DNA of 46,909 bases, from the NCBI GenBank assembly GCA_001803225.1, contig MHBF01000068.1, forward strand, positions 1-46,909, in the 5' to 3' direction. The position numbers and the translations under genes were made by a program. How positions within the stretch are numbered: the stretch's first letter is position 1; every line of letters starts with the position of its first letter. The notes beneath the pieces were generated by a model. The model was not told where the DNA came from. It ran no database searches and saw only the letters and a program-made list of their open reading frames with translations. Of this stretch, positions 6,915-39,462 are shown piece by piece. This DNA comes from Lentisphaerae bacterium GWF2_44_16. GTDB taxonomy: Bacteria; Verrucomicrobiota; Lentisphaeria; Victivallales; GWF2-45-14.

Positions 6915-7124
6915 ATGAGTGCCACTAAAAAAACTGAACCTCCGCTCGCGGAACTGCGCGCTAAAAAACAGCTGTGGCTGTTGTTCATAATTATTTTCAT
7001 CATGCTGATAGTCGGACTCCTTGCCTTTAACAGGCAAGTGCAGAAAGTCGGCAGAGAAGCCGAGGAGTTGAAAAGTGAAGGACGGCTCCCCTCCGGGGCA
7101 AGCCCCAACGCAAAACCCTTATAA
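6915..7124 (+). CDS. small single-pass membrane protein
   Basis: This is a 69-residue protein with a basic N-terminus (LRAKKQ), one strong transmembrane helix at about residues 19-38 (LWLLFIIIFIMLIVGLLAF) and a short charged tail with coiled-coil character (QVQKVGREAEELKSEG). I do not recognise a family. It ends 15 bases before the next gene, another single-pass membrane protein, and the pair is probably co-transcribed. The ribosome site is poor (GAAAGG, about 13 bases from the ATG). The intact TM helix, flanking basic residues and the tight spacing argue that it is real. Confidence 0.6.
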   Translation: MSATKKTEPPLAELRAKKQLWLLFIIIFIMLIVGLLAFNRQVQKVGREAEELKSEGRLPSGASPNAKPL

Positions 7125-7139
7125 AAAAGGAGCGTAATC

Positions 7140-7949
7140 ATGACAGAAGAGAAAAAACAACCTGAAGATGTTCAGGAGCAAAATCCCGAAACCCCTCAGG
7201 AAATGCTCGCAAAAGCCGAAGCCGCAGCAATGGCGCTGAAAATAAAAAAGAAAAAAACAATGATGATATATTCTCTGGCAGGGGCACTTCTTCTTCTGTT
7301 TGCCGCCGCCTTCGGAGCTTATATGTTCTATTCCGCGCAACAGGAAAAAATCAGGCTCGAAAAAGAAGCCGAAGCAAAAGCTGAACTCGCCCAAAAAGCG
7401 GAACTGGCAAAAAAAGAAGCCGCTAAAAAAGCGGAGGAAGAAAAGAAAAAAGCTGAACTCGCCCAAAAAGCGGAACTGGCAAAAAAAGAAGCCGCTAAAA
7501 AAGCGGAGGAAGAAAAGAAAAAAGCAGCTTTAAAAGCCGAAGAAGAGAAAAAGAAAGCTGAAGAAGCCGCCAAGAAAGCGGAAGAGGAAAAGAAGAAACT
7601 GGATGGACCGGCACTGGCCGCCGCAAAAGCTGAAGAAGAGAAAAAACTGGCAGAAGAAAAGGCCCGCCAGGAAAAGGAAGAAGCCCTTAAGATTGAAGAA
7701 GAAAGAAAGGTCGCGCTGAAATTCAGGGCAACTTTCAATGGCACAATAACAACACTTTCAGGTGAAGCCTATGAAAACGCCAAAATAACAGGGATTGACG
7801 CGAACGGTATCGATATAGCGTATTCTGCCGGAGCTAAATTCATTCCCTTTAAAAATCTCCCGGCGGATCTCAGAAAAAAAGTAGGCGGCGATCTTCCCGT
7901 GCTTGTAAAAAAAGTGCCTCAGGTTCACAAGCCCACGCCAGCCAAATAG
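7140..7949 (+). CDS. TolA-like coiled-coil membrane protein with SHD1-like C-terminus
   Basis: Residues 1-40 are cytoplasmic and charged. A transmembrane helix follows at about 41-64 (MMIYSLAGALLLLFAAAFGAYMF), then roughly 120 residues made almost only of Lys, Glu and Ala, a long helical coiled coil like the stalk of TolA. The C-terminal ~60 residues (SGEAYENAKITGIDANGIDI ... FIPFKNLPADLRKK) match a small SHD1-like beta domain that I associate with PVC bacteria. The stalk contains an exact 72-base tandem duplication. AAAGGAG lies 7 bases before the ATG. An ExbB/ExbD set is encoded at 24-26 kb; whether this protein is its periplasm-spanning partner is speculation. Confidence 0.75.
   Translation: MTEEKKQPEDVQEQNPETPQEMLAKAEAAAMALKIKKKKTMMIYSLAGALLLLFAAAFGAYMFYSAQQEKIRLEKEAEAKAELAQKAELAKKEAAKKAEEEKKKAELAQKAELAKKEAAKKAEEEKKKAALKAEEEKKKAEEAAKKAEEEKKKLDGPALAAAKAEEEKKLAEEKARQEKEEALKIEEERKVALKFRATFNGTITTLSGEAYENAKITGIDANGIDIAYSAGAKFIPFKNLPADLRKKVGGDLPVLVKKVPQVHKPTPAK
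7376..7519 (+). repeat. exact 72-bp tandem duplication inside the coiled-coil gene
   Basis: Bases 7376-7447 and 7448-7519 are identical. The unit encodes 24 residues of the stalk (centred on ELAQKAELAKKEAAKKAEEE), so the frame is kept. Identity at synonymous positions indicates a recent duplication or ongoing repeat-length change. Confidence 0.9.
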
Positions 7950-7968
7950 GGCAGATAAAATATACGCT

Positions 7969-8661
7969 TCACCAGCTGGCATCGTGCCAGAAGCCGTCCG
8001 CTCCGCCGGAATAGCTTCCTGTCAGCACTGCTTCTTTCTGTAATGGTTTCCAGCTCTCGACGTGGCTGTCAACAAAAACAATGTTATCAGAACTGTTTCC
8101 GTGTCTTCCTGAAAAATAATTATTTGAGAACATTGATGTAGCATGGCATGTGGCATCAGAACAATAAAGCCGTCTTGAAGGCTTTTTAACATTAGTAACT
8201 TTAGAAGCCCTGTCATAATGACTGTTCAAAGATGTTCCGTCTCCTGAACACAGAAAAGTATTAAACGAATAACTGAAATTCGGATTTCCGCCGCTTACCG
8301 CCCTATCCCCCGTTCCGTCCCGCCTTCCCGAAGGACACATGGATACCGGGGCCGGAGGGCCGACTGACGTTGATACTTTAACGGGAAAGTTGATATAAGC
8401 ACATAATGTTTGATCATATATACTTTCTGTAGCAGGACCATATAAAAAATTGCCTACAGACGAACCGCATGTACCCCAGCCATTATAATCAGAGGCGTAG
8501 TTGTCCATTGCGCTTGCCAATTGCCGCAGATTGCTCCGGCATACGCTTGACCTTGCGGCATCCCTGGCCTTGCTCAGGGACGGAAGTAAAAGACTGGCTA
8601 AAATCGCTATTATCGAAATCACTATGAGCAATTCGATGAGCGTAAATCTCCTAATCCTCAT
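7969..8661 (-). CDS. type II secretion/type IV pilin-like pseudopilin (cassette A)
   Basis: The 230-residue protein begins MRIRR and then [17 protein letters not shown], the hydrophobic N-terminal helix of type IV pilins and pseudopilins with the conserved Glu at position 5 of the mature part. The residue before the cleavage site is Arg rather than the usual Gly. A globular domain with several cysteines follows, ending in [19 protein letters not shown], a relaxed form of the H-X9-DG motif. I chose the start at 8661 because AAGGAGA lies 7 bases upstream; an earlier in-frame ATG at 8700 would overlap the end of the preceding gene. It is the last gene of a four-gene minus-strand cassette, 16 bases after the beta-helix gene, and converges on the coiled-coil gene with only a 19-base gap. 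Confidence 0.85.
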
Positions 8662-8677
8662 GATGCGTCTCCTTTCA

Positions 8678-11104
8678 TCAATAGACAAGCTTATAATCAT
8701 CCGTTATCAACAACATGTCAACGGAAAGCGTTTCACGAGGAAAAAGTCTTATATTGTGTTTCCCTTTTTTCAGGTTAAAAGGTTTGGCGGTAGTGCCAAG
8801 CGACGTGGTAGCTCCACAGCCGGACCACTTCCACTCTATGTCGCTACGGAGATGGGCCTGCCTGTTTTTTTCTTCGTCAAGAGAGATAAATACGGAATCA
8901 TGTGAGCCGAGCGGCTCCTCCGATTTGACACGGACGAATATCTGATAATCCCCGTCTTTCGGAACAGCGAAATCATAGGATAGAGACATTCCTTTTATCG
9001 CGCTGTCAAGGTAAACGCACTTTCTTTCAGAAGCCTTCTTATCTTCCATAACCTTGAAAATGTGCGGCACGGAACTCTTTTCCGCTTCAATATATAATGC
9101 GAAACCTTCACTTTTCTTCTTAATCTCCTCTTTGCCTTCCGCCTTCGCGTAAACAGTAACCGGTCTGGAATATCCGTTTTCCAGCTTTATAAGGAAAAGT
9201 CCTTTGTACAAGCCGGGCTTCTTTATTTTATCTTTGTTAATGGATATCTTGAACTGGACGTTGCTGTTTTCTTTGAATACTCCCGTTGAAGGCTCGACAG
9301 TTAACCAGTCGAAAACATTATTTTTCCTGACTTCAAAATTCCCGGAGAATCTCTCAACACCTTTCACATTCGCATTAAGGGCCTGAGAAAGAATATCCGT
9401 TCCGATATCGAACTTGAAATTGACCTGATATTTGTCGAGATAAACAGGTATCGGACGGTACGGCAGCGGCTGATTGTCTCCTGTCTGGAACGCTCCTCTG
9501 TCTGGATTTTCAGCGTTATATTTTCCAATAAAATTGTCAACGGGCTCCCCATTTTTAAGAGCGGGACTTTTTTCACTCAGTGCAAAATTTCCGTTCTCAA
9601 TACTGGCGAATTCCGGGTTCTTTCCGAAAATACCGTGAGCTTCCCAGCCTTTCTCTTTCAACTTTTCTTCCGTAGATTTAAGCAGCTCGGAACTTTTGCT
9701 GTAAATAAGGTCATAATCGAAATCATTGCCCCTCTTGAATACGCTGCCGTTAAAAAGCTCCCTTGATGAATAAAAGATATTATTTCTGGTAATGCCCCTG
9801 AGTTCTTTTCCATATTTCGCTATTCCATCCTTGTTTCCGTTGTAATGCCCATATCCGCCGAAGGCATAAACGGTATTATTGAAAACATAGCATCTGCCTC
9901 TGTCATAAAGCCCGTGACCGTTTTTGAAAGCGGAATATCCAGAGCCATCCTCATCCGCGAGATTGACGATAAGGTTCCTGAAAAGATACGAAGGCCCGAG
10001 CAGGCACGGCCCGGTGCTTATCCCGCACAATGAGCCTTCAAACTTGTTCTGAAAAACCCTGATATTCATCTGGCCTCCGTCAAGTTCTATACCGTCATCA
10101 TTTGAATAAATGAAGATATTTCCATAGATTTCGGCATCACGGAAAAAACCTCCGTTCGGCGAACCGTTCCCAATTCCCTCTACCGTGTCGTTCCATCTGT
10201 GCGCGTCACTTCCGATAAAATCATTGTACCGCAAAACTGTCCCTCCAGTGGAATGTACGGCCACGGCGTTAGGCCCGGCCGGATGCGAATACTTCCATGA
10301 ATTGGCATGTCCCCTCGGATCATGCATATAGCATCTTTCAACAACGACATTGCCGCTCTTGGAAATATTTACCCCGGCGTCATTATTAATAGAATTTCCC
10401 CCCACGTAATATTTCCCGTCTTTTGCAACATCCTGCTTGCCTATTCTTCCATAACCTGAAATATCACAGTTAAGCACCCTTATATTCTGTGCGTCTTCCA
10501 GGGAAATACCATGTCTTGCGCCGCCTTCTATTTTGAGGTTTTCAAAAATTATGTATTCTCCACCCTTCACGGTTATAACGGCGTTTTTTTTATCATCGCC
10601 CTTAAGGGTGAAACCTTTATCCGATGTATATTTTATCCAGCCGTCCTTTGTTCCTTTTTCGGTAATTAGCAGTTCATTATCAAATTTAAGGTCTTTTACA
10701 TTTATAGTTTTAGCTACCGGAAGAACAGATGTCCATGTTTTGAAATTAGCGGTAAAAGTATTTTTGCCCTGATTGATTTTCAACTCGTATTCAGTATTTT
10801 CCTTGAGGTTTACAATGCAGCCGCGGAACATGGCCTTATCGGTATAAATAGTTTTTCCTGTTGTTCTGTTCCCCAGATATTCACCAAGTTCTTTTTCAGG
10901 TATCGGCACGAGCTCAAAAGCCTTATTCCATTTGTCGCTTCCTTTTTCTCTGAATTCAGTAACGCATGGCGTTTGCGTGTCAGCGGCTTCAAAATATATC
11001 CCGCAGGACTGGAAGAGCGGAACGGCCGTAAGCTTGTTATCCCCGGCCATAATAATTCCAGACATACAGAAAATCCCGATCAGCAACATTGATAATTTTC
11101 TCAT
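8678..11104 (-). CDS. secreted right-handed parallel beta-helix protein, probable polysaccharide lyase-like
   Basis: The 808-residue protein has a signal peptide ([20 protein letters not shown]), an N-terminal domain of fibronectin type III character ([21 protein letters not shown]), and a long run of beta-helix rungs from about residue 140 to 480 ([40 protein letters not shown]). A region near 575-660 ([13 protein letters not shown] ... [11 protein letters not shown]) looks like a BACON-type domain, and the last ~140 residues (YIEAEKSS ... GDYQIFVRV ... KGKHNIRLF) resemble a carbohydrate-binding module. It is probably a pectin-type lyase or hydrolase, given the upstream rhamnogalacturonan-esterase-like gene, but catalytic residues could not be assigned. 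AGGAG lies 9 bases before the ATG; the esterase gene ends 23 bases upstream. Confidence 0.8.
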
Positions 11105-11127: not shown

Positions 11128-11820
11128 TTATTTCAAATATTTTTTCAATTCCGAGTCTGTTTTTTTCAAGTCTTCGATTATCAACTGGGCCATTTTATCG
11201 GCGCCTTCCGGAGAGAAGTGCGTTCTATCTCCGGGTTTGTTTGCCATGTATTTGGATTTCTCCTCGCCCAGTTCCTGCACTAGTTTTCCGCTGGACGCAT
11301 GAAGGTCTATAATGAGAATACCTTTTTCCTTAGCGACTTCTTTCATGGCGTTAGCGTAAGGAAGCAGGTTGTCCGCGAGTTTTCCATCTTTAAAGGTTCT
11401 CCTGTACATGGGGGTTATGAAAATTATTTTTGCTCCTGTTTTCTTTGCGTCATCCGCGAATTTTCTCAGATTGTCCTTGTAATCAGTGGCGGCGTCAGTG
11501 GCTTCCGGTCTGTCCTTCGCATGCGAATCATTATGCCCGAACTGCACAAGTATATAGCCGGGTTTCGAATCCAGAAGCTTCTGCCAGTCGCCCTTTTCCT
11601 GAAAGGTTTTCGTGCTTCTTCCGCTGATGGCGAAATTTTCAATACTTACATTGTCTTTAAAATATTTCCCTATAAGCTGTCCCCATCCGGCAATTTCCGG
11701 TTTCGTATAGGACGCTACCGTAGAATCACCGGCAATAGATATCTTTATTTTTTTCATATCCGCCTGACAAAGCTCCGTTGTCATGCACAAGGCACACAGC
11801 ATAAAAATCTTTCCGCCCAT
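11128..11820 (-). CDS. secreted SGNH/GDSL esterase, rhamnogalacturonan acetylesterase-like (CE12)
   Basis: The four SGNH blocks are visible: nucleophile in IAGDSTVASY (S33), oxyanion Gly in ISGRSTKTF (G67), Asn in QFGHNDSH (N97), and the Asp-x-x-His pair in GDRTHFSPEG (D198, H201). The order and the text around each block match carbohydrate esterase family 12, which removes acetyl groups from pectin-type backbones. A signal peptide precedes (residues 1-20, ending ELCQA). At 230 residues it is a single-domain enzyme. It lies between the regulator gene (21 bases upstream) and the beta-helix gene (23 bases downstream), so deacetylation before backbone cleavage is a reasonable reading. AAAGGTG lies 5 bases before the ATG. 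Confidence 0.88.
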   Translation of the reverse strand: MGGKIFMLCALCMTTELCQADMKKIKISIAGDSTVASYTKPEIAGWGQLIGKYFKDNVSIENFAISGRSTKTFQEKGDWQKLLDSKPGYILVQFGHNDSHAKDRPEATDAATDYKDNLRKFADDAKKTGAKIIFITPMYRRTFKDGKLADNLLPYANAMKEVAKEKGILIIDLHASSGKLVQELGEEKSKYMANKPGDRTHFSPEGADKMAQLIIEDLKKTDSELKKYLK

Positions 11821-11841: not shown

Positions 11842-13185
11842 TTATAATTTTTCAGTATTATTATGTTTTTTTATATTTAAGAATATTCTTACGGCATCCG
11901 CCAGTTCTCGAGTGGCTTTTTTAATATTTTCGCTATTATTGAGGATTTGTCTTATTCCGTCATTAATCATAGCGCAAAGTTCAGGGGAATCGATATTGTA
12001 TTGGGCCGATGTCTTTGAAGCTTCAGTTAGAAACAGGGCGTCTCTCGGATCTTCAATATCTATGCTTTTGAAAGCTGATGATTTCCTTATCGGTATGCCG
12101 TAGGCTTCAGCTCCTATAAAATCCTGCACCTCTTCTGAAAGCATGAGCCTCACAAATTCCTCCGCCGTCTGATAATCAGTACAGGTGTTGCGAATACATA
12201 TAAGGTCCGTCGCCTGTGCGGAAATATCCCTGCCGCCTTCTATAAAAGGAATAGGGACAGTCGCCCAGTTTTTGAATTTTGACCGCTTTATGAACGGCAT
12301 TATCTCTCTCGGCTCTATGAAAAACGCCAGTTCGCCCTTGCAGAACTCTCTGACATAATCAGGATAAGGTCTGTTTCCGTCATAATTCAGCTCCTTTTTC
12401 AAGCATGATAAGAGTTCCAAGGCGTATTGAGTACGCGGGTGATCTATCATGACCATGTCTTCGCGTTCCGGGTCCATCAGGCAGGCACCTGCTCTGAAAA
12501 TGATATTTATCCAAAGACTGGGCGCGGAATGCCAATCAAAAATTTTTTCAGAGGGTAACGTCTTTTTAAGCTTTCTTACAATTACAAGAAAGTCATCCCA
12601 TGTCCAGCCGGGGCGAGGAAAAGAAACCCCTGCTTTTTTAAGCAGTTCGGGATTATAAAACATCACTCTCGGAGAAAAAATAAAAGGTATGCCGGGAAGC
12701 CTGCCGTTAATGTAGAACGTCTTGAACGGATGTGTGAAGAAGACTGACTTGTCCGGATAACACTTGTCAAAAATAGGAGCAAGATCAAGATAATCCCTGC
12801 TTTCGCTCTGCACAGTAACCGTAGTCCGAAGTTCAAATATGCTTCTCCTGAATTTTTCCCGTACCCTGAGCTGGGGGAGTTTTTCGGCGAATATCTTTTC
12901 AAGCCCGGAAAGCCAAGGAAGGCCGAAATACGTTTTGAATGCCGTAAAATTTGACTGAAGTATCCTGTTCTGCCATTCGTGCTGAACAAAGGTACCGCGT
13001 CTGGGAACAGCCTCCAGAATGCCGTCGCGCACCAGTTGTTCCAGTGCCTGCTGAACTTTCATGAAAGAGATTTTCAAAGTGCCGGAAATTTCACGGGCCC
13101 CCGGAAGTTTTTGGCCCGGCTTCAGTTCTCCGCCTTCCAGCCGGTCAAGTATATAATTTCTTACTTTGAGAGCTTTGTCTTCCAT
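11842..13185 (-). CDS. GntR-type wHTH fused to an extracellular solute-binding-like domain (regulator)
   Basis: Residues 1-70 are a GntR winged helix-turn-helix (LKVRNYILDRLEGGELKPGQ, AREISGTLKISFMKVQQALE, DGILEAVPRRGTFV). The remaining ~370 residues look like a family 1/8 ABC sugar-binding protein (LPGIPFIFSPRVMFYNPELLKKAGV, GWTWDDFLVIVRKLKKT, ELAFFIEPREIMPFI, AEEFVRLMLSEEVQDFIG). There is no signal peptide, so the sugar-binding fold sits in the cytoplasm as the ligand sensor of a one-component regulator, in place of the more usual UTRA, FCD or LacI-type domain. It is the first gene of the cassette, 21 bases before the esterase, and its own promoter has a consensus core overlapped by a short palindrome. 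Ligand unknown, probably an oligosaccharide. Confidence 0.85.
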   Translation of the reverse strand: MEDKALKVRNYILDRLEGGELKPGQKLPGAREISGTLKISFMKVQQALEQLVRDGILEAVPRRGTFVQHEWQNRILQSNFTAFKTYFGLPWLSGLEKIFAEKLPQLRVREKFRRSIFELRTTVTVQSESRDYLDLAPIFDKCYPDKSVFFTHPFKTFYINGRLPGIPFIFSPRVMFYNPELLKKAGVSFPRPGWTWDDFLVIVRKLKKTLPSEKIFDWHSAPSLWINIIFRAGACLMDPEREDMVMIDHPRTQYALELLSCLKKELNYDGNRPYPDYVREFCKGELAFFIEPREIMPFIKRSKFKNWATVPIPFIEGGRDISAQATDLICIRNTCTDYQTAEEFVRLMLSEEVQDFIGAEAYGIPIRKSSAFKSIDIEDPRDALFLTEASKTSAQYNIDSPELCAMINDGIRQILNNSENIKKATRELADAVRIFLNIKKHNNTEKL

Positions 13186-13205: not shown

Positions 13206-13234
13206 ATTATAACACAAAGCCATGACCATGTCAA
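13206..13234 (-). promoter_or_regulatory. consensus sigma-70 promoter of cassette A
   Basis: Read on the minus strand, TTGACA (13229-13234) and TATAAT (13206-13211) are both perfect and 17 bases apart. The predicted transcript starts about 14 bases before the regulator ATG at 13185, with GGGGA as ribosome site. Confidence 0.75.
13223..13233. promoter_or_regulatory. candidate operator, copy 1 (TGACCATGTCA)
   Basis: This hyphenated palindrome (TGAC-CAT-GTCA) overlaps the -35 hexamer of the cassette A promoter. A near-identical copy lies 54 bases away, about five helical turns, as expected for paired operators. Confidence 0.45.
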
Positions 13235-13276
13235 GACCCTAGCTTAATATATTTAATTTTTTCAATATACCAGCTG

Positions 13277-13287
13277 TAACCATGTCA
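13277..13287. promoter_or_regulatory. candidate operator, copy 2 (TAACCATGTCA)
   Basis: It matches copy 1 at 10 of 11 positions and sits upstream of the cassette A promoter and of the hisC promoter candidate. Confidence 0.4.
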
Positions 13288-16323: not shown

Positions 16324-16352
16324 TTGACAACAAGCAAAACATGTTATATAAT
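16324..16352 (+). promoter_or_regulatory. perfect sigma-70 promoter of cassette B
   Basis: TTGACA (16324-16329) and TATAAT (16347-16352) are both exact with a 17-base spacer. The ATG at 16381 and AAAGGA ribosome site follow. Confidence 0.8.
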
Positions 16353-16380: not shown

Positions 16381-17502
16381 ATGGACGAGACTTTTCAGAA
16401 TGTACACCGATACCAAAAAATAACGGAAAAGATAAAATCGCTCATCAATTCCGGCAAGCTTAAACCCGGCGAAAGGGTGCCGTCCGTAGAAGAAATAAAA
16501 GATACTTACAACGTCAGTCATATCACAGCGATGAGAGTTTTCAAAGACCTCTCATGCGAAGGGCTCATTCATCTGATAAGAGGAAAAGGCTACTTCGTTT
16601 CCGACTCGAAAAGGTCTTCAGTCAATAAGAAGTGTATTGGCGCCATGTTAAGAACATCGCGCATGTACACCTACTTTGATAATTTCCTTAACGATATGAA
16701 CGCCGGCATCCATAGGGAATGCCTTTGCAACGGCTACGACATACTTTATCCACATGCCGTAATATCAATATCAGAAAGCGAACTTTTCATGGATAAAAAC
16801 GCTTCTGAGGAAATAATCAGGGCCGCTGTAAACACTGAAGAAAAAGTTGACGGCTTTATCTTTGACGGCTGCGTACCGGATGACGTCATTGAAAAAATCC
16901 TGGAAAAAGTCAGCAAACCAATTGTAATCGTTGACAGAAAATCAAAACTCCCCGTTGACTCCGTTTATTCCGATAATACAAAGGTTACCAAAGCGACAGC
17001 GGAAATGACAATAAAAATGGGTTATGAACATTTCATAGTCCTGAGAAGCTGTAATCATAAGGCGTCCATCAAAGAACGCGTTTCCGCTTTTCTTGAAACT
17101 CTGAATTCAGCAAAAATATCAAAGTCCAATATACATATAATAGAAGGCTCCAATATAAAGCACTGGGACATTATTTTTCAGGAGTTAATAGAAATCAGAA
17201 AATCACTGCCGGAAAAAGCCAGAATACTGTTGTTTGCCCCGACAGAGTCAACCGCAAGATATTTCTGCGATAAATTTCCTGAATATAATATTACTCCAGG
17301 CAAAGATTTAGGCATCTTGAGCTACGAGGGAAAAAGTTTTGCCTATTACAAGGAGCCTGAGCTGACTACAATAAAAATCGACCCTGACAAAATGGGACGA
17401 AAAGCGGTGAATGTGCTTATAGACAGAATTAGCGGCAAAAACCAGGGAAAAGTTTCAGAACACGTTGTCGAAGTCAACTTATCAATGGGAAAGACAATAT
17501 GA
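16381..17502 (+). CDS. GntR wHTH with LacI-type sugar-binding domain (transcriptional regulator)
   Basis: Residues 1-75 form a GntR winged helix-turn-helix (YQKITEKIKSLINSGKLKPG, SVEEIKDTYNVSHITAMRVF, LIRGKGYFVSD). From about residue 82 the protein has a LacI/GalR-like periplasmic-binding fold: IGAMLRTSRMYTYFDNFLND, KVDGFIFDGCVPDDVIEKIL, PIVIVDRKSKLPVDSVYSDN, and the late KIDPDKMGRKAVNVLIDRI block. It should bind a sugar and control the genes that follow, a pseudopilin (overlapping by 4 bases) and a large beta-helix protein. AAAGGA lies 7 bases before the ATG. This arrangement matches the AraR-like GntR/LacI chimeras known in Firmicutes. Confidence 0.9.
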   Translation: MDETFQNVHRYQKITEKIKSLINSGKLKPGERVPSVEEIKDTYNVSHITAMRVFKDLSCEGLIHLIRGKGYFVSDSKRSSVNKKCIGAMLRTSRMYTYFDNFLNDMNAGIHRECLCNGYDILYPHAVISISESELFMDKNASEEIIRAAVNTEEKVDGFIFDGCVPDDVIEKILEKVSKPIVIVDRKSKLPVDSVYSDNTKVTKATAEMTIKMGYEHFIVLRSCNHKASIKERVSAFLETLNSAKISKSNIHIIEGSNIKHWDIIFQELIEIRKSLPEKARILLFAPTESTARYFCDKFPEYNITPGKDLGILSYEGKSFAYYKEPELTTIKIDPDKMGRKAVNVLIDRISGKNQGKVSEHVVEVNLSMGKTI

Positions 17503-37743: not shown

Positions 37744-39462
37744 ATGAGTATTAAAGACTGGTACGGAAAAAAACCTTCTCTGGCCATAGCCTCAGACCAC
37801 GGCGGCTATGAAATGAAAAATTCAATCCTCGCGGCAATATCAGCCAAAGGCATCAACGCCGTAGATTACGGCCCCTGCTCTTTCGACGCCGAAGACGATT
37901 ATTCGGACTTCGCCGGAAAACTCGGCCTTGCCGTTTCAAAAGGCGAAATAGACTGCGGCATACTGATATGCCGTTCCGGCATCGGCATGTGCATAAACGC
38001 AAACCGCTTTCACAATGTCCGCGCCGCCCTCGTTTATGAAGAAAAAACAGCCAGGTTGAGCCGCGAACACAACGCTTCCAATATTCTCGTTCTGAACGCG
38101 ACCTACACAGACCAGAAAAAAGCCGAAGCCATCATCGATACATGGCTGAATACCCCATACAGCAACGCCGAACGCCACACAAGGCGCCTTGAAAAAATCG
38201 AAGTGAACTCCTATGACGATATCGCGGCAGTACGCAATGTAGATCCGGAAATAGCCGGGTTCCTTGACAAGGAAGCCTCCCGTCAGGATGAGGGCATTGA
38301 ACTTATCGCATCCGAAAACTTCACCAGCGCCGCCATCCGTGCCGCTCAGGGTTCGGTACTTACAAACAAGTACGCCGAAGGCTATCCCGGAAAACGCTAC
38401 TACAACGGCTGTGAATTTGTTGACGAAGTCGAAAAAATCGCCATTGAACGCGCCTGCAAGCTCTTCGGAGCGGAAGCCGCAAACGTTCAGGCGCATTCAG
38501 GCAGTCAGGCAAATATGGCCGCTTACTTCGCCATCATCAAACCCGGCGATACTGTGCTGGCAATGGACCTCGCGCACGGCGGGCATCTCACTCACGGGCA
38601 TCCCATGAACTTCAGCGGCATGCTCTACAAAATCGTCGGCTACGGCGTTGACCCAAAAACCGAAATGATAAATTACGACGAAGTCGAAAGGCTCGCGAAA
38701 GAGCATAATCCCAAAGTTATAGTCGCCGGGGCCAGCGCATACCCCAGAACAATTGATTTCCCGCGCCTCCGCGCCATCGCGGATAAAGTCGGAACTAAAC
38801 TTTTCGTCGATATGGCGCATATAGCAGGGCTCGTCGCCACAGGCGAACACCCCAGCCCCGTCCCTTACGCAGACATAGTTACGACGACCACACACAAAAC
38901 CCTCAGAGGCCCCCGTTCAGGGCTCATCCTCTGCAAAGAACAGTATATAAAGGATATAAACTCAAAGCTTTTCCCCGGACTTCAGGGCGGCCCGATGATG
39001 CATACCATCGCGGCAAAGGCAATATGCTTCCATGAAGCGATGTCCCCGGAATTCAAGCTCTACCAGAAACAGGTAAGACTTAACGCAGTGAAGCTGGCGC
39101 AGGCACTTACTGAAAGAGGTTTCAGGATAGTTTCCGGCGGCACGGACAACCATCTCATGCTCGTCGATCTCCGTCCGAAAAAAGCCACAGGCAAGGAAGT
39201 AGCGACCATCCTCGATGTCGCCGCCATCACGGTTAACAAAAACATGATACCTTTCGATCCTGAAAAACCCTTCGTCACAAGCGGCATCAGGATAGGCACT
39301 CCGGCCGTTACCACGCGCGGCATGAAAGAGGACGCAATGGTTAAAATAGCCGATTTCATAAACAGGGCCGTTGACAACAGACAGAATGAAACAGCGCTGA
39401 AGGAAATAGCCGCCGAAGTAAAGGCATTCACAAGAAAATATCCGATGCCCCGTTTCATCTGA
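37744..39462 (+). CDS. RpiB-GlyA fusion: ribose-5-phosphate isomerase B + serine hydroxymethyltransferase
   Basis: Residues 1-155 are Rpi[11 protein letters not shown] (D18, H19), [19 protein letters not shown] (C76 as candidate general base), [13 protein letters not shown], and the basic helix [10 protein letters not shown] that binds phosphate. Residues from about 164 to 572 are complete Gly[51 protein letters not shown], the PLP lysine in [12 protein letters not shown] (K385), [15 protein letters not shown] and [17 protein letters not shown]. One chain would interconvert ribose-5-P and ribulose-5-P and make methylene-tetrahydrofolate from serine. There is no stop or start at the junction. 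RpiB has CRSG where most relatives have CGTG or CGSG. It follows the phosphatase by 12 bases and precedes serS by 22. Confidence 0.93.

Follow-up and report, generated by a model that had tools for sequence, protein, structure and literature searches.

The regulator gene and its operon

The window, by which we mean the whole stretch of DNA that was analysed, comprises 46,909 nucleotides of contig MHBF01000068.1 from Lentisphaerae bacterium GWF2_44_16. It contains an apparent operon whose first gene encodes a one-component regulator with an N-terminal GntR winged helix (wHTH) and a C-terminal solute-binding protein (SBP) fold. The features of the locus are as follows.

7969 to 8700, minus strand: pseudopilin-like protein with a TLIELL motif, closing the apparent operon
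8678 to 11104, minus strand: secreted right-handed beta-helix protein of 808 residues, beginning 23 bp after the esterase gene
11128 to 11820, minus strand: secreted SGNH/GDSL esterase-like protein, beginning 21 bp after the regulator gene
11842 to 13185, minus strand: GntR-SBP one-component regulator of 447 residues (open reading frame with ATG start, Pfam, AlphaFold2, Foldseek)
11854 to 12936, minus strand: MBP-like solute-binding fold, approximately residues 84-444, putative cytoplasmic sensor domain (Pfam, AlphaFold2, Foldseek against the PDB)
12985 to 13170, minus strand: wHTH DNA-binding domain, residues 6-67, PF00392 (Pfam)
13206 to 13211, minus strand: -10 box TATAAT, preceded by TG (sigma-70 consensus)
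13223 to 13233, no strand assigned: predicted operator O1, TGACCATGTCA, a perfect TGAC-N3-GTCA palindrome
13229 to 13234, minus strand: -35 box TTGACA, overlapped by O1 (sigma-70 consensus)
13277 to 13287, no strand assigned: predicted operator O2, TAACCATGTCA, matching at 7/8 positions, 54 bp upstream of O1

Successive genes of the operon are separated by 21, 23 and -23 bp; the pseudopilin start either overlaps the beta-helix gene by 23 bp or, given a later start, follows it after a short gap. The gene on the other side of the regulator is hisC-like, and there is no ABC permease gene within the operon or adjoining it.

A GntR winged helix joined to an MBP-like fold

Residues 6-67 of the regulator match GntR PF00392 (E 6.6e-15; 55 bits, the cut-off being 27), and the remainder of the chain matches, above the curated Pfam cut-offs, both SBP_bac_8 PF13416 (residues 151-371, E 2.2e-11) and SBP_bac_1 PF01547 (residues 164-354, E 7e-11). 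A sequence search of the PDB returned the YvoA wHTH together with arabino-oligosaccharide-binding and other sugar-binding proteins. AlphaFold2 produced a confident solute-binding fold, with pLDDT mostly 80-95 over residues 130-444; over the wHTH the model cannot be relied on (pLDDT < 50), because the alignment consisted of free SBPs only and zero rows spanned the wHTH. Compared with the PDB by Foldseek, the model gave more than 1000 matches at E <= 0.001, the top ones, with a probability of 1.00, being T. maritima MalE3, the Listeria cycloalternan- and beta-1,2-glucooligosaccharide-binding proteins, and E. coli MBP (best E ~1e-18, TM-score up to 0.77). By Pfam, AlphaFold2, and Foldseek alike, the regulator thus has the two-lobed MBP-like fold of the SBP_bac_1 and SBP_bac_8 proteins. 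It carries neither a signal peptide nor a lipobox, since the chain begins with the wHTH.

These results confirm the pairing, in one protein, of a GntR winged helix with an MBP-like solute-binding fold. The earlier note on this DNA had read the C-terminal part as resembling an extracellular sugar-binding protein, attached to a DNA-binding domain and lacking an export signal, and had named a fold unrelated to solute-binding proteins as the prediction that would speak against it; each element of that reading was borne out, and the predicted fold is that of a solute-binding protein. Its placement of the fold in cluster B/D survives in part. Cluster B is the RbsB/LacI-like fold and does not apply; cluster D, to which the MBP/MalE-type fold belongs, does.

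The architecture is stable across relatives. In a family alignment of 22 rows, spanning 27-54% identity to the window regulator, Pfam finds GntR in 22 of 22 and SBP_bac_1 scoring in 18 of 22, and the same architecture in 49 full-length relatives rules out a gene-call artefact or a chance fusion of two genes. Within the wHTH, Arg31 corresponds to the first recognition arginine in FadR numbering (R35) and is invariant across the family; Phe41 and Gln45 presumably occupy the positions of FadR R45 and R49.

Abundance and spread of GntR-SBP genes

How common is this architecture? The 5.16-Mb genome contains approximately 100 GntR domains or wHTH genes, an unusually large set in which most frames are 335-430 residues long, as for GntR-LacI chimeras. 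GntR-SBP fusions number approximately 13 (at least ten, plus three recognised by homology; 447-481 residues). The earlier note's statement that an SBP sensor is rarer than a LacI-type one holds in proportion, in that these ~13 genes compare with ~78 GntR genes whose frame length of 335-430 residues fits the GntR-LacI type, the gene at 16381 being the one checked as that type with Pfam. Transport-type sugar SBPs in the genome amount to only two SBP-permease proteins and one 690-residue SBP-containing protein; two further SBP_bac_1 matches resemble the phosphate-binding PstS. Free sugar SBPs thus seem nearly absent from the genome, while GntR regulators account for ~13 SBP folds. The sugar-type ABC SBPs that are fused with a permease in one chain have 832 and 926 residues (e.g., L167 1180-3678 and L168 2882-5662). 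We also observed, on contig C81 of this genome, two GntR-SBP regulators arranged divergently and back to back (L089 5650-6993, minus strand, and 7085-8479, plus strand), each preceding its own pseudopilin and secreted-protein genes.

The 49 full-length relatives are distributed across several classes of the phylum. Of the 198 genomes from the class, 35 have relatives of the subfamily at 27-56% identity, nearly all from the same order, as do five genomes from other classes; outside the phylum, the architecture was found in two Bacillota genomes (6.8-7.3 Mb) and one Chloroflexi genome. GntR-SBP is a recurrent family rather than an isolated oddity. The tree built from the SBP part places the fused domains of the phylum on one branch with those of the Bacillota (ultrafast bootstrap 81; bootstrap 100 for a subset that includes the Bacillota), leaving the free SBPs and the transporter SBPs of this genome outside it. 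A single origin of these fused domains is suggested rather than proven by this topology, because the tree sampled a small number of free SBPs (21), and the Chloroflexi fusion looks independent. Derivation of the SBP part from a transporter SBP of the same genome is ruled out by the position of the two SBP-permease proteins outside the fused branch.

A conserved palindrome at the promoter

The regulator gene is preceded by the promoter TTGACA-17-TATAAT (13234-13206), a 12/12 match to the sigma-70 consensus with a spacer of 17 nt, and the stretch 13206-13287, at which the earlier note had proposed to look for DNA binding, contains a predicted operator pair that is common to the family. The same layout of promoter and palindrome is found ahead of relatives. 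The pattern TTGACNNNGTCAN{9,12}TATAAT has exactly two matches in the 5.16-Mb genome, one at the window regulator and one at a 48%-identical paralogue, and a third subfamily paralogue has the pattern with one mismatch. TTGAC-N16..19-TATAAT occurs at 131 places in the genome, and in only two of them is a GTCA arm positioned. Over 48 genomes the operator-promoter pattern gave 28 matches versus 0 for the reversed control; within the order, 19 of the 21 matches in subfamily-carrying genomes, their places judged by reading, immediately precede a family gene, including one that points at the divergent gene for an 836-residue protein beside the regulator.

The palindrome itself follows the family. It is perfect within 150 bp upstream of 29 of the 49 members, versus 0.08 expected in shuffles, and at 24 of 588 other open reading frames of the same loci; at 7/8 positions or better it is found within 150 bp of 37 of 49 members versus 2 expected, leaving 12 without such a site, and since the members are kin these counts are not independent and the associated p-values are indicative only. 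Among members with a TTGAC/-10 promoter, 22 of 33 have the full GTCA arm, versus 1 of 27 control promoters in the same loci. Could the operator be merely the -35 box? The second copies, the control promoters, and the members from other classes rule this out. All seven of the latter lack the TTGAC/TATAAT promoter form yet have a 7/8 or 8/8 palindrome, so TGAC-N3-GTCA is more than a -35 box. On the strength of this distribution, both genome-wide and within the family, we consider it very likely that the site is bound by the GntR-SBP regulator. Looping at a fixed helical phase is unsupported, because the O1-O2 spacing differs from locus to locus.

The usual GntR operator is NyGTNxACNy, i.e., GT-Nx-AC, with described exceptions (PMC4494728). 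The order of the operator predicted here is instead AC..GT. Phe and Gln in place of the FadR recognition arginines would fit this inverted order. Rfam contains no known RNA element that matches the leader. In the window, one-mismatch matches to TGAC-N3-GTCA number 35 on both strands together, versus 10.9 in shuffles, and just ahead of the gene for the GntR-LacI regulator at 16381 there is likewise a perfect TTGACA/TATAAT promoter (16324-16352, plus strand), though without TGAC-N3-GTCA.

Secreted partners of the regulator

The window locus combines the features of the subfamily, namely a GntR wHTH and an SBP in one frame, TGAC-N3-GTCA upstream, and a co-directional gene for a secreted enzyme. 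The SGNH protein resembles B. subtilis YxiM and rhamnogalacturonan acetylesterase, and because of this second likeness a pectic polymer is suggested as the substrate at this locus. For the same reason, oligogalacturonides and related sugars, the compounds with which the earlier note would have screened the sensor domain, are a plausible ligand class.

Across the family, the regulator gene has a pseudopilin gene as its immediate downstream neighbour at 24 of 49 loci, usually with a large secreted protein next, and relatives of the beta-helix protein lie near the regulator in approximately 20 loci, other classes included. Among regulator-carrying genomes, 22 of 26 have the beta-helix family, versus 1 of 19 regulator-free ones (Fisher p ~7e-8), a comparison that is partly circular because the search profile was built from regulator-linked loci. 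The beta-helix family is absent from four genomes with the regulator, and in one genome (G028) none of the 14 copies stands beside a regulator. Beyond Beta_helix itself, searches of the PDB and Pfam, including one with a 19-row profile, gave at most weak matches and no convincing one to a solved or curated enzyme. Strictly conserved in the family are HDPRG, GSD-HRWND, and one further stretch of 11 residues. We regard this secreted family as a candidate new polysaccharide-active family.

Proposed mechanism

How might such a protein control its locus? Directly legible in the DNA are the two domains, the missing export signal, the gene order and its gaps, the promoter, the operator pair, and the conservation of both the operator and the enzyme pairing. 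We propose, as the probable reading, that the regulator is an autoregulated, substrate-inducible repressor of its own operon that uses an MBP-type SBP fold as its sensor. A dimer of the regulator would bind TGAC-N3-GTCA both at O1, which overlaps the -35 box, and at O2, which lies 54 bp farther upstream, and would thereby shut the single strong promoter of the regulator, SGNH esterase, beta-helix, and pseudopilin operon. The secreted enzymes would free oligosaccharides from a polysaccharide that is probably pectic and acetylated, or acidic in some other way; after their import, the SBP domain would close its cleft around them. Cleft closure would part the two winged helices, the repressor would leave the DNA, and the operon, the regulator included, would be induced. 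Dimerisation, repression, the ligand, and domain closure as the switch are what we infer in this scheme; repression is favoured over activation because the promoter is perfect and the operator lies on its -35 box.

The same protein and DNA site could also serve a ligand-dependent activator or a dual regulator, with O2 activating and O1 only tuning the promoter, a reading that we consider unlikely. It would give a role to the second palindrome site, which is present here and in 18 of the 29 promoter-bearing members, and there is a precedent in E. coli SgrR, an HTH protein with an SBP_bac_5 domain that controls other genes beyond its own negatively regulated promoter (PMC13060122). However, a promoter that matches the consensus at 12 of 12 positions should need no help, O1 lies directly on the -35 box, and the second site is in some loci not upstream but downstream (+35 to +60) of the -35 site.

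A different and rather doubtful proposal is that an imported sugar is no longer what the SBP domain senses: the domain would serve as a scaffold for dimerisation, or would bind some cytoplasmic metabolite that has nothing to do with the polysaccharide. Glu118, Tyr132, Asp134, Arg293, and Arg332 are invariant in the 10 subfamily members compared, Gln324 is found in nine and Arg173 in seven, and these residues are mostly unlike those of free SBPs; similarly, the aromatic residue that closes the GxW motif, Trp in 13 of 21 free SBPs, is Gln, Glu, or His in the subfamily. Such departures, the operon's want of an ABC permease, and the report of glutamate as the ligand of SgrR (PMC13060122) would all suit a sensor of something other than sugar. 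Yet the sensor fold is complete at high confidence in the AlphaFold2 model, the linked enzyme family is conserved, and the charged residues peculiar to the subfamily look like specialised ligand contacts and not like decay. For the substrate-inducible repressor, we infer a sensor pocket that has been retained but specialised, possibly for an acidic ligand.

Finally, we think it improbable that TGAC-N3-GTCA is another regulator's site or an extended -35 element while the GntR-SBP protein binds elsewhere: the motif order is unusual for GntR proteins (PMC4494728) and 22 family-free genomes contain 7 promoter-operator matches, but nearly all matches in subfamily-carrying genomes lie at family genes, members from other classes keep the palindrome outside any -35/-10 context, and the recognition-helix residues differ from those of FadR, fitting an altered motif.

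Relation to known regulators

An SBP fold also serves as the sensor of a cytoplasmic regulator in B. subtilis Btr, which pairs an AraC DNA-binding domain with an SBP of the metal/siderophore type. E. coli SgrR and V. cholerae DsvR resemble the present regulator in having an N-terminal HTH and a C-terminal cytoplasmic solute-binding domain, and negative autoregulation has been reported for SgrR (PMC13060122). On this comparison we would name E. coli SgrR as the nearest working analogue. The likeness is functional only: SgrR has another type of HTH and an oligopeptide-type SBP_bac_5 domain and responds to sugar-phosphate stress, whereas the present regulator combines a GntR wHTH with an MBP-type SBP_bac_1/8 domain in an operon with secreted degradative proteins and gives no Pfam match at E <= 1 to the SgrR-type HTH or to SBP_bac_5. 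ABC-importer SBPs such as MalE3, Lmo0181, CbpB, and YesO share the sensor fold, including the PGWTWDDF and GIP...YN stretches. Compared with MBP/MalE-type importer SBPs, the regulator differs in that it lacks a signal peptide, a lipobox, and a neighbouring permease, is fused to a DNA-binding domain, and falls on a branch of its own.

Where does the regulator belong among GntR proteins? A 2015 comparative study lists six subfamilies, FadR, HutC, MocR, YtrA, AraR, and PlmA, with C-terminal domains that are, by subfamily, alpha-helical FCD, UTRA, aminotransferase, short helical, or PlmA (PMC4494728). FadR, HutC, MocR, YtrA, and PlmA proteins share the N-terminal GntR wHTH with the regulator, in which Pfam and NCBIfam matches to these subfamilies cover only the wHTH and FCD, UTRA, and aminotransferase domains are absent. 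AraR-type regulators, for example that at 16381, come closer in that they too join a GntR wHTH to a sugar-sensing fold of the periplasmic-binding type in local sugar regulation; their sensor, however, is RbsB/LacI-like (Peripla_BP_1/3) rather than SBP_bac_1/8, and Pfam finds no Peripla_BP match in the present regulator. The regulator is thus a member of the GntR superfamily by its wHTH and fits none of the six listed subfamilies, none of which has an MBP-type sensor. We found no description of a GntR-SBP regulator in the open literature (InterPro and subscription journals lay outside the search); the domain pair is probably already visible in InterPro.

We lean, if only somewhat, towards the view that these proteins form a seventh, undescribed GntR subfamily with an intracellular MBP-type sensor, which would have arisen mainly by one fusion and expanded in the phylum until most sugar-type SBP folds of the genome were the sensors of gene switches, each governing a cassette of secreted enzymes through its own operator, here a non-canonical AC..GT palindrome. 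GntR regulators are classed by their sensor domain. Because the predicted operator is specific and the partner conserved, the DNA target, the ligand, and the enzyme substrate are testable together. The family is also relevant to glycan sensing in these polysaccharide-degrading bacteria. The GntR-SBP family could furthermore be a source of sensor domains akin to well-studied, engineerable sugar-binding proteins, and its loci point to an uncharacterised family of secreted beta-helix proteins.

As a separate observation on the window, a plus-strand frame of 572 residues at 37744-39462 resembles, by eye, ribose-5-phosphate isomerase B fused to serine hydroxymethyltransferase.
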